Positions 1,450 to 9,037 of a stretch of DNA of 11,361 nt are shown one piece after another. The position numbers and the translations under genes were made by a program. The notes under the pieces were generated by a model. It was not told the origin of the DNA, ran no database searches, and saw only the letters and a list, made by a program, of their open reading frames with translations. Origin of the DNA: Chloroflexota bacterium (lineage in GTDB: Bacteria > Chloroflexota > Dormibacteria > CF-121). The stretch's first letter is position 1. Each line of letters starts with the position of its first letter. Where the stretch lies: positions 1 to 11,361 of the forward strand of contig VBFF01000057.1 of NCBI GenBank assembly GCA_005889285.1, written 5' to 3'.

Positions 1450-1572
1450 ACCTAGGCGGAGCACCTTCGCACCAGGTGGCCGCCGAAATGTCCCCGTGCT
1501 GCCTGTCCAACGGGGGCGGGCGCGGTTTGGTTACGGCGCCCGGAGGTCCACGTGGCTCGCGATCGACGCCCG

Positions 1573-1578
1573 TATAAT
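1573..1578 (+). promoter_or_regulatory. -10 box for the zinc-ribbon membrane protein
   Basis: A perfect TATAAT followed by GG, 28 bases before the ATG at 1606. The -35 region is poor. It is divergent from the TATAAT at 1449-1444. A transcription start near 1585 would rule out an ATG at 1552 as the translation start and favours 1606. Confidence 0.45.
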
Positions 1579-1605
1579 GGGGCCGCTTTGTCGAGTTCGG
1601 AACCG

Positions 1606-2130
1606 ATGGCGAAAGCGGGGACCGTGTTCTGCCGCTCGTGCGGCAAGGCGATCGAGGCGGGCGCCCGGTTCTGCCGGTTCTGCGGTAAGTCGCAGGCCGA
1701 TCCGGGCGCTGGCGTGCCCTCCGCCGCATCGGCGTCGGGCCCGGCCCGCCAACCCGCCGAGGCCGGCCTCGAGCACCGGCTTCGCCAGATCTTCCCCCGG
1801 CACCATCTCCAGGACGAGTTCACCCACGTGGGCACGATCGCGGCCTTCCTGATGGCACTGATCGGGTTCATCGTCGGCTTCTTCATCAACTACAGCTGGC
1901 TCGGAACAAATTTCCTCCTCGGCTCGATCGCCCTGCTGCTCTTCCTCATCCTGCGTGAGTCGACCTTGAGCCACATCCGGGTACGCAACGGTGGATCGGC
2001 GTCCACCTCCGAGGGGGGAACCCGTTACCATGCGGGACGGCGTCCCGCCGGTGACGCCGGTCCGGCGGAGGCGGCTACGGCCGAGTCATCGCCACCCGCC
2101 GGTGGCAGGCCCCCCGCCACCCCTCGATAG
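1606..2130 (+). CDS. Zinc-ribbon membrane protein
   Basis: A 174-residue protein of unknown role. The N-terminus is a short zinc ribbon with CRSCGK and CRFCGK knuckles (Cys9, Cys12, Cys23, Cys26), as in the 'zinc_ribbon_2' type found at the start of many bacterial membrane proteins. A Pro/Ala/Ser linker follows, then two close hydrophobic spans (about 76-96 and 100-117). The last about 55 residues are basic, Gly/Pro/Ser-rich and probably disordered. The ribbon should sit in the cytoplasm. An in-frame ATG at 1552 would add 18 residues but lies upstream of the TATAAT at 1573, so 1606 is preferred; only a weak GGA sits in front of it. The gene ends convergently with the CsbD-like gene. The domain reading is firm; the function is unknown. 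Confidence 0.8.
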   Translation: MAKAGTVFCRSCGKAIEAGARFCRFCGKSQADPGAGVPSAASASGPARQPAEAGLEHRLRQIFPRHHLQDEFTHVGTIAAFLMALIGFIVGFFINYSWLGTNFLLGSIALLLFLILRESTLSHIRVRNGGSASTSEGGTRYHAGRRPAGDAGPAEAATAESSPPAGGRPPATPR

Positions 2131-2157: not shown

Positions 2158-2169
2158 CGTCGAATTCGC

Positions 2170-2336
2170 CTAAACGCCCTTGTCGCCAGCCGTCTCTGGC
2201 GCGGTCGGATCGCCCTGGGTCATCTCGCGACCAACCTCCTCGACCTTGCCCTTCGCCTTCTGAGCCTTGCCTTCCCATTCCATCTGCCGCCGGTGTCTTT
2301 GACCTCGCCTTCGACCTTGTCACGCAACTCGCCCAT
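2170..2336 (-). pseudogene. CsbD-like small stress protein, broken by a one-base frameshift
   Basis: CsbD-family proteins are short, highly charged, general-stress proteins of unknown mechanism. Reading from ATG 2336 gives MGELRDKVEGEVKDTGG in one frame. The next frame then continues from the ATG at about 2283-2281 as MEWEGKAQKAKGKVEEVGRE and so on, ending in ETAGDKGV and a TAG at 2170. The interval of 167 bases is one short of 56 codons, so a single missing base near 2283 joins the two halves into a normal-length protein of about 55 residues. The start has an excellent GGAGG six bases upstream and a terminator follows, so the gene was recently functional. Either the frameshift is real or the base was lost in sequencing or assembly. 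The EGxxKxxxGK-type repeats support the CsbD assignment. Confidence 0.72.
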
Positions 2337-2469
2337 GCTGCACCTCCGGTTTTTCAGCGCGATACGGCGCCTGTTATGAAACATGATAACGCTGGACTAC
2401 CGTTCCGTCTACTACGTGAGCGCGGAGCTGGGCCGTCAAGTGAGTTCACATCTATTTACGAAACGTGCG

Positions 2470-2498
2470 TTGAGCTGGGGCGACCTGCTCCCTATACT
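2470..2498 (+). promoter_or_regulatory. Sigma-70-type promoter of the first HspR-like gene
   Basis: TTGAGC at 2470-2475, a 17-base spacer, and TATACT at 2493-2498. It gives a transcription start near 2505 and a leader of about 75 bases before ATG 2581. Just upstream (2440-2449) is GTGA-GT-TCAC, a small dyad that could be an operator half. It does not match the actinobacterial HAIR consensus. Confidence 0.6.
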
Positions 2499-2580
2499 CG
2501 GGAGGATTTACGCCGGTCGGAGATGTCACGTGGCGCTCGCCGTATTCAGACCGGGAGGCAGACACATCATGGAGGCTCCT

Positions 2581-2928
2581 ATGGCAACCGTTCTCAAGCG
2601 TGATACCCGGCGCGACACGAATATCTCCCTCGACAAGCCGATCTACACCATCAGCGTCGCGTCCGAGATCCTCGAAACCCATCCGCGGACGCTCATGATG
2701 TACGAGCACCTCGGGCTGGTCGTCCCCAAGCGGACCTCGACCAACCGCCGGCGGTTCTCGCAACGCGACGTCATGAAACTGCAAACCATCCAGAAGCTGA
2801 CCCGGCACCACTCGGTCAACCTGGCCGGCGTTCGCTACATCCTGAAGTTGCTCAAGCTGCTCCAGGAGCATCAGCTTCCCTCGCCCGTCGAGCTGCGCGA
2901 CCTCGACGTTTCGCAGCTGGACGTCTAG
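2581..2928 (+). CDS. HspR-like MerR-family transcriptional regulator (copy 1)
   Basis: A 115-residue DNA-binding protein. MerR-type winged helix-turn-helix spans about 20-75: YTISVASEI, then THPRTLMMYEHLGLVVPKR (helix-turn-helix) and TSTNRRRFSQRD (wing). This matches HspR, the repressor of chaperone genes in Actinobacteria and relatives, in the phrases 'HPRTL..YE.LGLV.P.RT...RR.S..D' and 'GVNLAGVRYIL'. The C-terminus ends in ELRDLDVSQLDV, shared with copy 2. There is no ligand-binding domain. ATG 2581 has GGAGG five bases upstream and gives the same length as copy 2. An in-frame ATG at 2569 is also possible. No dnaK, grpE or clpB lies in the window, unlike classic hspR operons. It may autoregulate, as HspR does. 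Family confidence is high; targets are unknown. Confidence 0.88.
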   Translation: MATVLKRDTRRDTNISLDKPIYTISVASEILETHPRTLMMYEHLGLVVPKRTSTNRRRFSQRDVMKLQTIQKLTRHHSVNLAGVRYILKLLKLLQEHQLPSPVELRDLDVSQLDV

Positions 2929-3006
2929 AAATTTTTGCGCCGCGTGTTGCAACGCGGTAGCACGTTATCGATAGTGGCGGCAGGATACTTCCTTACTGTC
3001 TCGGTG

Positions 3007-3035
3007 TTGACAAGGCATCAGCCCCTGCCTATAAT
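3007..3035 (+). promoter_or_regulatory. Consensus sigma-70 promoter ahead of the response regulator
   Basis: Perfect TTGACA (3007-3012), a 17-base spacer, and perfect TATAAT (3030-3035). This is the strongest promoter seen in the window. The predicted start is about 3042, only some 23 bases before a terminator-like hairpin. It may therefore make a short RNA or an attenuated leader for the response regulator at 3208. Confidence 0.8.
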
Positions 3036-3064
3036 CCGACTTAGTTCTTCTGCCCCCCTCTTCG

Positions 3065-3093
3065 GGCCCTCCCTTCGGAGGGCCTTAACTTTT
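3065..3093 (+). terminator. Terminator or attenuator hairpin in the response-regulator leader
   Basis: GGCCCTCC (3065-3072) pairs perfectly with GGAGGGCC (3077-3084) around a CTTC loop, followed by TTAACTTTT. The 8-bp GC-rich stem is strong and the U tract is imperfect. It can end transcripts of the first HspR-like gene. It can also end, about 50 bases after its start, the RNA made from the consensus promoter just upstream. Confidence 0.65.
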
Positions 3094-3116
3094 CCGGGAC
3101 TGTAGCCCAGGAACGT

Positions 3117-3218
3117 ATGCCCACTAAGGAGTCCGACGTATTGCTTCCCGTAAACGTCGCGAGATGCGCGAAGTTCGTCTATACTGCTTCGCGCCAAGGG
3201 GAGTGTTATGGAAAGTAA
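3117..3218 (+). CDS. Possible 33-codon leader ORF overlapping the response regulator
   Basis: ATG 3117 has AGGA four bases upstream. The frame runs for 33 codons to TAA at 3216-3218, ending 11 bases inside the response-regulator gene. The product begins MPTKESDVLL and ends QGECYGK, and resembles nothing known to me. An alternative TTG start at 3141 has AAGGAG ten bases upstream. Its position after the hairpin and its overlap with the next start fit a coupling or leader peptide. An ORF this short can easily arise by chance. Confidence 0.25.
   Translation: MPTKESDVLLPVNVARCAKFVYTASRQGECYGK
3166..3194 (+). promoter_or_regulatory. Inverted repeat straddling a -10 box (candidate operator)
   Basis: GCGCGAAG (3166-3173) and its exact complement CTTCGCGC (3187-3194) flank 13 bases that contain TATACT at 3180-3185. 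There is no good -35 hexamer 16-18 bases upstream. A protein bound to this dyad would cover the -10 box of a proximal promoter for the response regulator. The half-sites could also pair in RNA next to the Shine-Dalgarno sequence at 3196-3203. Confidence 0.5.
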
Positions 3219-3645
3219 GACGCGCCGCAGCGCCGGCGCGAGCCCTGCCAGTCAGGCGGCCCAGGCCGATGAGGACCTGGTCGACGTTCTCCTCGTGGAA
3301 GACGATCCTTCTGTCCTCGAGATGTACCGTCTCAAGCTCGAGCTCGATGGGTACCGCGTCAACACCGCGCTCGACGGTGAGGAAGGCCTCAAGAAGGCCA
3401 GCGATCTGAAGCCGGACATCATCTTTCTCGATATCCGTCTCCCCAAAATGGACGGACTCGAGGTCTTGAGGAAATTGCGAGCGCAGGATAAGACGCGCGA
3501 GATTCCGGTTATCATCCTCTCTAACTACGATGAAGAAGACCTGGTCGCGCGAGGGCTGCGGCTGGGAGCGCACGAGTACCTCATCAAAGCGCGCACGACG
3601 CCGACCAGCCTCTCAGAAGGAATCGAGGATTGGCTAAAGGAGTAA
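3208..3645 (+). CDS. Stand-alone receiver-domain response regulator
   Basis: A 145-residue CheY-like protein with no output domain. After a 25-residue Ala/Ser-rich N-terminal extension comes a full receiver: acidic pocket Asp32/Asp33 in VEDD, phospho-acceptor Asp75 in FLDIRLPKMDG, Ser105 in IILSNYDEED, and Lys127 in YLIKA. All catalytic residues are present, so it should accept phosphate from a histidine kinase, which is not in this window. ATG 3208 has AAGGGGAG four bases upstream. The last codons overlap the TTG start of the second HspR-like gene by 16 bases, so the two are co-transcribed and probably translationally coupled. The output is probably through protein contact. The adjacent HspR-like protein is the obvious candidate partner, but that is inference. 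Confidence 0.92.
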   Translation: MESKTRRSAGASPASQAAQADEDLVDVLLVEDDPSVLEMYRLKLELDGYRVNTALDGEEGLKKASDLKPDIIFLDIRLPKMDGLEVLRKLRAQDKTREIPVIILSNYDEEDLVARGLRLGAHEYLIKARTTPTSLSEGIEDWLKE

Positions 3646-3977
3646 CCCGCCGCGCACCGAGCGATACGAGCCTCTCGCTCGATAAGCCGATCTATACCAT
3701 CAGCGTCGCGTCGGAGATTCTGCAGACGCATCCGCGCACGTTGATGATGTACGAGCACCTCGGCCTGGTGGTGCCCAAGCGGACGTCGACCAACCGGCGA
3801 CGGTTCTCGCAGCGCGACATCCGCAAGCTGCAGGCGATCCAGACGCTGACGCGCCAGCACGGGGTCAACCTCAATGGCGCCCGCTACGTGCTGCGCTTGC
3901 TGCGCATCCTGGTCGATAACGGGCTCGCTGCGCCGCCTGAGCTACGCGACCTCGACGTCAAAGAACTAGACGTCTAA
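3630..3977 (+). CDS. HspR-like MerR-family transcriptional regulator (copy 2)
   Basis: A 115-residue paralogue of the regulator at 2581. Over the last 102 residues 78 are identical by direct count. The recognition helix and wing (THPRTLMMYEHLGLVVPKR and TSTNRRRFSQRD) are unchanged, so both should read the same operator. Differences cluster in the dimerisation helix after residue 63, while the terminal ELRDLDVxxLDV is kept. The start is TTG 3630, inside the last codons of the receiver gene, with AAGGA eight bases upstream at 3617-3621. No ATG or GTG fits. The gene ends in TAATAG. Being coupled to a receiver is unusual for HspR, which normally responds to DnaK. Heterodimer formation with copy 1 is possible but untested. 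Confidence 0.88.
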   Translation: MAKGVTRRAPSDTSLSLDKPIYTISVASEILQTHPRTLMMYEHLGLVVPKRTSTNRRRFSQRDIRKLQAIQTLTRQHGVNLNGARYVLRLLRILVDNGLAAPPELRDLDVKELDV

Positions 3978-8962: not shown

Positions 8963-9037
8963 TGGGGCGTGGCCAAGTGGTAAGGCGCCTGACTCTGGAT
9001 CAGGTAAACCTAGGTTCGAATCCTAGCGCCCCAGCCA
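8963..9037 (+). tRNA. trnQ: tRNA-Gln, anticodon CTG
   Basis: Full cloverleaf read by hand. The acceptor stem TGGGGCG pairs with CGCCCCA over all seven bases. D stem GCC/GGC; anticodon stem CCTGA/TCAGG with loop CTCTGGA, so the anticodon is CTG (8995-8997), decoding CAG. T arm CTAGG-TTCGAAT-CCTAG. Discriminator G9034 and an encoded CCA at 9035-9037. Its 3' end is repeated at 10260-10274. Confidence 0.97.

Follow-up and report, generated by a model that had tools for sequence, protein, structure and literature searches.

The window, by which we mean the whole analysed stretch of 11,361 nucleotides, is an entire contig (C56) of a genome that comprises 1.73 Mb in 193 contigs and is 82% complete. 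Named relatives of this genome are soil or permafrost MAGs, and a close receiver, P0012, is assigned by name to Candidatus Dormibacteraeota. Within the window, two genes encoding small MerR-type repressors, hspR-A and hspR-B, flank RR1, a gene encoding a receiver-only response regulator (Table 1). All three genes of this order, HspR-like / receiver / HspR-like, which had been put forward in an original prediction, are real and are arranged as it said. The same prediction proposed that the second repressor starts with TTG and overlaps the receiver by 16 bases, and both points were confirmed, the TTG being the earliest ATG, GTG or TTG after the stop in the hspR-B frame. The proposed beginning of the cassette, position 2470, had to be revised, as it belongs to a -35-like box and holds no start codon. 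Instead, hspR-A starts at an ATG with GGAGG five bases 5′ of it (an in-frame alternative ATG lies at 2569). Further along the window, a tRNA-Gln (CTG) gene occupies positions 8963-9037 (+ strand), between genes for an FGGY-type sugar kinase and a Kelch-repeat protein.

Table 1. Features of the cassette and its surroundings, in window coordinates
Feature	Position	Strand	Basis or remark
Zinc-ribbon membrane protein, island neighbour	1552..2130	+	same place in L059 (by eye)
CsbD-like stress gene, frame interrupted in the window	2165..2345	-	compared with L059:14265-14498
hspR-A upstream region: conserved box GTTCACATCTATTTACG (2444-2460); promoter-like TTGAGC (2470-2475), 17 nt, TATACT (2493-2498)	2444..2498	+	
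hspR-A, HspR-like MerR repressor, 115 aa	2581..2928	+	ATG 2581; Pfam, NCBIfam
Intergenic element: TTGACA (3007-3012), 17 nt, TATAAT (3030-3035), C-rich stretch, hairpin 3065-3084, T-rich tail	3007..3095	+	
Receiver's own -10-like TATACT (3180-3185) and Shine-Dalgarno AAGGGGAG (3196-3203)	3180..3203	+	conserved in aligned rows
RR1, receiver-only response regulator, 145 aa	3208..3645	+	ATG 3208; Pfam Response_reg E 1.5e-26
RR1/hspR-B overlap, 16 nt: WLKE stop of the receiver and TTG start	3630..3645	+	
hspR-B, second HspR-like MerR repressor, 115 aa	3630..3977	+	TTG 3630; Pfam, NCBIfam, predicted model

HspR-A and HspR-B both match Pfam MerR_1 (E 2.3e-15 and 2.1e-16, respectively). Their proposed HspR-type identity held up in that HspR is the best NCBIfam match of both (E 1.6e-26 and 4.3e-25), though the scores of 92.1 and 87.5 bits fall under the equivalog cut-off of 105 bits, and we therefore call the proteins HspR-like rather than HspR. 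A predicted model of HspR-B (pLDDT 87.1, pTM 0.75) has as its best Foldseek match a GlnR-DNA complex (4r4e, E 1.1e-4), and a profile search likewise returned GlnR as the nearest solved structure; the GlnR-type DNA-binding fold is common to MerR proteins in general. The two repressors share 82 of 115 residues end to end, and 80 of 104 when counted from the common ‘DT..SL’, close to the 78 of 102 counted originally. In the winged-helix part, the two copies hardly differ. At the DNA level, 233 of 312 positions are identical over these 104 codons, and only 57 of the 104 third positions, so the duplication that produced the two genes is old.

RR1 has only Response_reg above the Pfam cut-off, with no output domain in its 145 residues. 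The residues expected of a phosphorylation site (E31, D32, D33, D75, S/T105 and K127) are kept in 10/10 aligned receiver rows, Thr105 occurring in one. One coupled receiver outside those rows, that of genome G021 (L131:3044-3448), has diverged and partly lost the acidic pocket, and that of G013 (G013:C168:13872-14129) is interrupted by TGA. The HspR genes adjoining these decayed and stop-interrupted receivers are intact.

The 279 nt between hspR-A and the receiver gene contain a consensus promoter and a terminator-like hairpin, which are parts of the intergenic element of Table 1. This element occurs in 17 of the 18 genomes of the window's family and in none of 23 others (the eighteenth, G004, is without the region). 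It is always at the hspR-A/receiver locus, and G003 has it twice, on two contigs. Comparison of 18 distinct sequences showed no variation in a core of 21 bases, the loci having been chosen by this same core; a pattern search permitting three mismatches found one. No Rfam family matched 3007-3095 at E≤1. The element may encode a small RNA or act as an attenuator in front of the receiver gene. When the C-rich RNA was scored for base-pairing to the starts of genes, hspR-B gave the best value (-21.8) and the others ranged from -15.8 to -17.1, to be read against two controls, at -17.1 and -9.8, which are too few for a target to be named. Upstream of hspR-A, the box of Table 1 is conserved in alignments of the family, and the promoter there is a consensus match only.

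In the corresponding locus L059, the cassette is one end of an island. Over about 12.4 kb it carries five paralogues of HspR and two receivers, set among genes for stress and the cell envelope. From the far end, the island consists of HspR5 (- strand), a trehalose-6-phosphate synthase (Glyco_transf_20), HspR4 (- strand), a gene that matches nothing in Pfam, an M41 protease resembling FtsH, HspR3 with a second receiver, RR2, ahead of it (both - strand), and two YtxH-like genes, one of them under the Pfam cut-off. There follow a class A penicillin-binding protein, the zinc-ribbon protein, the CsbD-like gene (whose match in L059 is under the Pfam cut-off), HspR-A, RR1 and HspR-B. The other half of the island in the window's genome, with RR2, HspR3, HspR4 and HspR5, is on contig C51. 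Beyond HspR5 lies a third receiver. It forms the C terminus of a protein of about 480-690 aa that is rich in proline and apparently anchored in the membrane; this protein was present in all seven genomes of the family that were read (the window's own and six others; L058:1222-3156, L171-L176), with one copy running off its contig.

Conservation of the receiver-repressor pair

The sample of the class Dormibacteria comprised 41 genomes, namely the window's own and 40 relatives, divided among families f1 (18 genomes, including that of the window), f2 (8), f3 (11) and f4 (4). HspR matches at E≤0.001 were found in 39 of the 41 and are strong in 36, while those in the other three, all from f4, lie near 1e-5 to 1e-6. 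The adjacency of receiver and repressor, which would have counted against the original prediction had it been confined to a single genome, recurs widely: a receiver leads into a same-strand HspR gene in 27/41 genomes from three families (f1 18/18, f2 5/8, f3 4/11, f4 0/4). The coupled genomes are G018, G020, G022, G028 and G040 in f2, and G021, G023, G031 and G033 in f3; a damaged receiver is found in two of the 27 (G013 and G021). The complete HspR-receiver-HspR order is present in 21/41, comprising 17/18 of f1, where the contig of G004 ends inside the receiver so that the full order is not visible, and 4/8 of f2 (G020, G022, G028 and G040). Because the arrangement recurs in other genera and families, it is more than chance. 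A strong HspR without coupled receiver is seen in 9 of 36 genomes (seven from f3, two from f2).

The junction itself is also conserved. At the first junction, RR1-HspR-B, the overlap is 16 nt in all 18 f1 genomes (in G013 via the receiver remnant) and in 5/5 from f2, of which G022 and G040 were read by eye. It is the Trp codon in the receiver's [DE]W[LV]KE/RE end that supplies the HspR start codon, whether this reads TTG, GTG or ATG. The second junction, RR2-HspR3, has the same 16-nt overlap in 6 of the 11 genomes read. For the others, the longest reading frames put the spacing at +3, +4, -1 and -29, and in G016 it is +110. In f3, the genes overlap by 4 nt in G023 and G031, and by eye in G021, and are separated by a gap of 5 in G033. 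Across 16 f1 rows, from which one with a broken receiver had been dropped, the third codon positions of the receiver do not vary at 5 of 6 sites within the first overlap, versus 9 of 120 in 3270-3629. The overlap was also inspected by eye for signs of programmed frameshifting, and no slippery heptamer was seen.

These observations bear on whether the genes were simply juxtaposed once and then retained by descent without functional reason. As 18 of the 27 positive genomes come from one family, there are few independent events, which speaks for such retention. Against it stand the occurrence of the same junction in f1 and f2, a related pair in another context in f3, and the extra third-position conservation in the overlap, and we regard this explanation as very improbable. 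A functional link between receiver and HspR is likely.

Separation from chaperone genes and history of the pair

The original prediction saw the receiver as occupying the place of dnaK, and there is indeed no dnaK nearby, with a receiver in the partner's position. Although dnaK is present in 40 of the 41 class genomes, it never shares a contig with an HspR match, and none of 30 dnaK loci of 3.3-4.8 kb contains an HspR-like frame. Since MAG contigs are short, this result speaks to linkage and not to regulation, and a dnaK gene at another place may nonetheless be among the targets. Sites matching the HAIR consensus of HspR operators (TTGAGY-N7-ACTCAA, up to 4 mismatches) number 3 in the window, versus 6.4 expected from shuffled background. 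Scanning with this consensus gave no excess at class loci and identified no HspR operator in them; the chaperone-linked control loci, whose promoters possibly lie outside the stretches, were likewise without clear sites, with the sole exception of one 2-mismatch site in L123.

In a phylum-wide sample, HspR was detected at E≤1e-15 in 86/121 genomes. Receivers of the subfamily, by comparison, were detected at E≤1e-35 in 13/121, all within the 15 class genomes drawn. Of the 73 genomes outside the class that have HspR, we read 20, and all 20 HspRs lie by lon, dnaK/dnaJ or clpB, which is nearly always the next gene; receivers (E≤1e-8) are absent from all 20 stretches. Of these neighbours, phmmer identified DnaK in six stretches, while Pfam confirmed nine cases of Lon, three of DnaJ and two of Clp (L115 and L123); that of L112 was assigned by motifs. 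Several of the outside HspRs (L112, L120-L122 and L127) have a long coiled-coil-like C-terminal helix, whereas the class HspRs are short-tailed.

Phylogenies of both proteins were built from short alignments, with bootstraps that had not settled, and their support values are to be read accordingly. The HspR tree of 106 rows unites the 86 rows of the class in a single clade (100/99). Inside it, HspR3 from f1 joins the f3 HspR that is linked to obgE/nadD (97/79), and HspR-A, HspR-B, the f2 copies and the remaining f3 copies form a separate clade (99/97). In the receiver tree, RR1 from f1 falls together with the receivers of f2 (92/90, an unstarred fork), while RR2 and the f3 receivers are largely unresolved. 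The placing of coupled HspRs in two clades, with the first-type receivers of f1 and f2 together, is as expected if the pairs were inherited as pairs.

The single class clade, the lack of dnaK linkage and the chaperone or protease neighbours of 20/20 outside HspRs therefore indicate that this HspR lineage left the chaperone operons and paired with a receiver. On the simplest reading of the trees and gene contexts, the pair would predate the family split and would have been duplicated on the way to f1, and in f3 the receiver beside HspR would have decayed (G021) or been lost (7/11). In Dormibacteria, an HspR-type lineage apart from chaperone operons forms, in three families, an overlapping two-gene unit with a stand-alone receiver that retains its phosphorylation residues. 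In the window's family, the unit exists in two copies, within the island of five HspR paralogues.

Possible control of the repressors by the receiver

The mechanism that in our analysis fits best is direct control, in which the receiver would be the signal input of the repressor, and we assign it a probability of roughly 45%. A histidine kinase encoded elsewhere would phosphorylate the receiver, and the phosphorylated receiver would bind the co-translated HspR-B, and perhaps also the near-identical HspR-A. Binding would change the grip of HspR on operators in the island, with the receiver acting as either co-repressor or anti-repressor, and so doing the job that falls to DnaK in classical HspR systems and to glutamine synthetase for GlnR. 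Likely targets would be the regulators of the island and their neighbours, i.e. the genes for trehalose-6-phosphate synthase, the FtsH-like protease, the class A penicillin-binding protein and the YtxH/CsbD proteins.

We count in favour of such a switch the coupling in 27/41 genomes, the 16-nt first junctions in f1 and f2 and the third-position conservation of the overlap, along with the phosphorylation residues kept in 10/10 receivers, the unlinked dnaK, and a fold resembling GlnR, itself a protein-switched repressor. Counting against it are the nine of 36 genomes with uncoupled HspR and the subfamily receivers that also occur away from HspR, as well as the fact that no fusion was found, that no operator was identified and that the scan of island proteins revealed no histidine kinase. 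As for fusions, among the best 120 of 1753 and the best 120 of 897 matches, the sole two-domain entry is P0109 (252 aa, receiver and MerR), and this is no true receiver-HspR fusion: about 35 residues at its receiver end are out of frame, and it is therefore taken for a frameshift product. A read-through single chain of RR2 and HspR3 (L063, 15 rows) was modelled with a pTM of 0.46, the receiver end being poorly modelled, and this speaks neither for nor against contact.

Three f3 genomes have a subfamily receiver that is unlinked to HspR and converges on a Clp ATPase gene (L157:3361-3783, L160:2938-3420 and L170:3021-3443; the Clp ATPase was checked by Pfam on L157).

One alternative is that the genes share expression and nothing more. 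HspR-B would then autoregulate the operon and thereby set the level of a receiver whose partner lies elsewhere, such as a kinase or another effector; the two products would make no contact, and the overlap would fix their ratio. MerR-type repressors often control their own operon, which favours this account, as do the existence of subfamily receivers away from HspR, including the three beside Clp ATPase genes, and the persistence of HspR where the coupled receiver is missing or decayed. It explains less well why the pairing was kept through duplication and in two contexts (the island, and obgE-nadD in f3), and we consider it rather unlikely.

A second alternative concerns which repressor is addressed. 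The receiver may act on HspR-A or on HspR3-5, or on mixed HspR dimers that change partners, leaving HspR-B mainly an autoregulator. This is favoured by the presence of five paralogues in a single island and by the likeness of HspR-A to HspR-B, whose tails are the same and whose winged helices barely differ. However, receivers are coupled at HspR-B and HspR3 only, and HspR4 and HspR5 have diverged and bear different tails, so that this appears improbable.

For direct control of the repressors, the original prediction offered a possible contact site, the common C-terminal motif ELRDLDVxxLDV. Here the evidence points the other way, as the tail is also found in stand-alone HspRs of f3, and HspR3, which is coupled to RR2, differs in its tail. 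The f3 HspRs that keep the tail without an adjoining receiver are those of L073, L076, L140 and L141; G023 and G033 have the coupled receiver elsewhere in the genome, and in G039, whose HspR bears the tail, no receiver of the subfamily was found at E≤1e-25.

More tentatively than for direct control as such, we picture a histidine-kinase pathway whose endpoint would be a free receiver rather than a response regulator that has its own DNA-binding domain. Once phosphorylated, the receiver would bind and switch co-translated HspR-type repressors in place of a chaperone sensor. In one family, this system would have grown into a stress island of five repressors and two receivers coupled to repressors, with a membrane-anchored third receiver at the far end. 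The genomic pattern suggests that the HspR/receiver pairing of Dormibacteria is a rewired stress switch specific to this lineage. Should the receiver indeed control the repressor, a single switch would unite two-component signalling with HspR-type control, and MerR-type repressors would answer to a wider range of protein partners. The cassette also provides a concrete entry to stress control in soil bacteria that are known mainly from metagenomes.

Comparison with known systems

HspR is the classic case of a repressor that senses protein damage via DnaK. Its targets in Streptomyces are dnaK, clpB and lon, and DnaK is described as a corepressor (PMC2687793). The cassette repressors resemble the HspR of Streptomyces and other bacteria in being small winged-helix proteins of MerR type whose best NCBIfam match is HspR. 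Unlike classical HspR, they are unlinked to dnaK, clpB or lon, score under the equivalog cut-off and are coupled to a receiver, and unlike the dnaK-linked HspRs of the phylum, the class HspRs are without a coiled-coil-like C-terminal extension.

A repressor switched by a protein partner is known in GlnR, a MerR-like repressor whose C-terminal tail inhibits DNA binding until glutamine synthetase binds the tail (PMC9249791). GlnR and TnrA resemble the proteins described here, since they provide the nearest solved fold and are short MerR proteins with a C-terminal tail and a protein partner that is encoded adjacently. In the HspR-like case, though, the partner gene encodes a receiver and not glutamine synthetase (no gene for the latter was seen among the island proteins scanned), and the evidence on the tail speaks against contact through it. 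Another MerR-type repressor, CarA of Myxococcus, is relieved by the antirepressor CarS (PMC8156234). As CarS does for CarA, a small protein might here relieve the repression exerted by its MerR-type partner; unlike CarS, which has an SH3-like fold and mimics operator DNA, the candidate partner here is a phosphorylation receiver.

Stand-alone receivers are known from Spo0F, DivK and CheY. RR1 is like these in having intact phosphorylation residues and no output domain, and unlike them in that its gene overlaps that of a DNA-binding repressor. No published description of a receiver-HspR layout was found in a search of the open literature, with subscription papers mostly outside its reach. The arrangement is real, conserved and, as far as was searched, undescribed: known parts in a new wiring.
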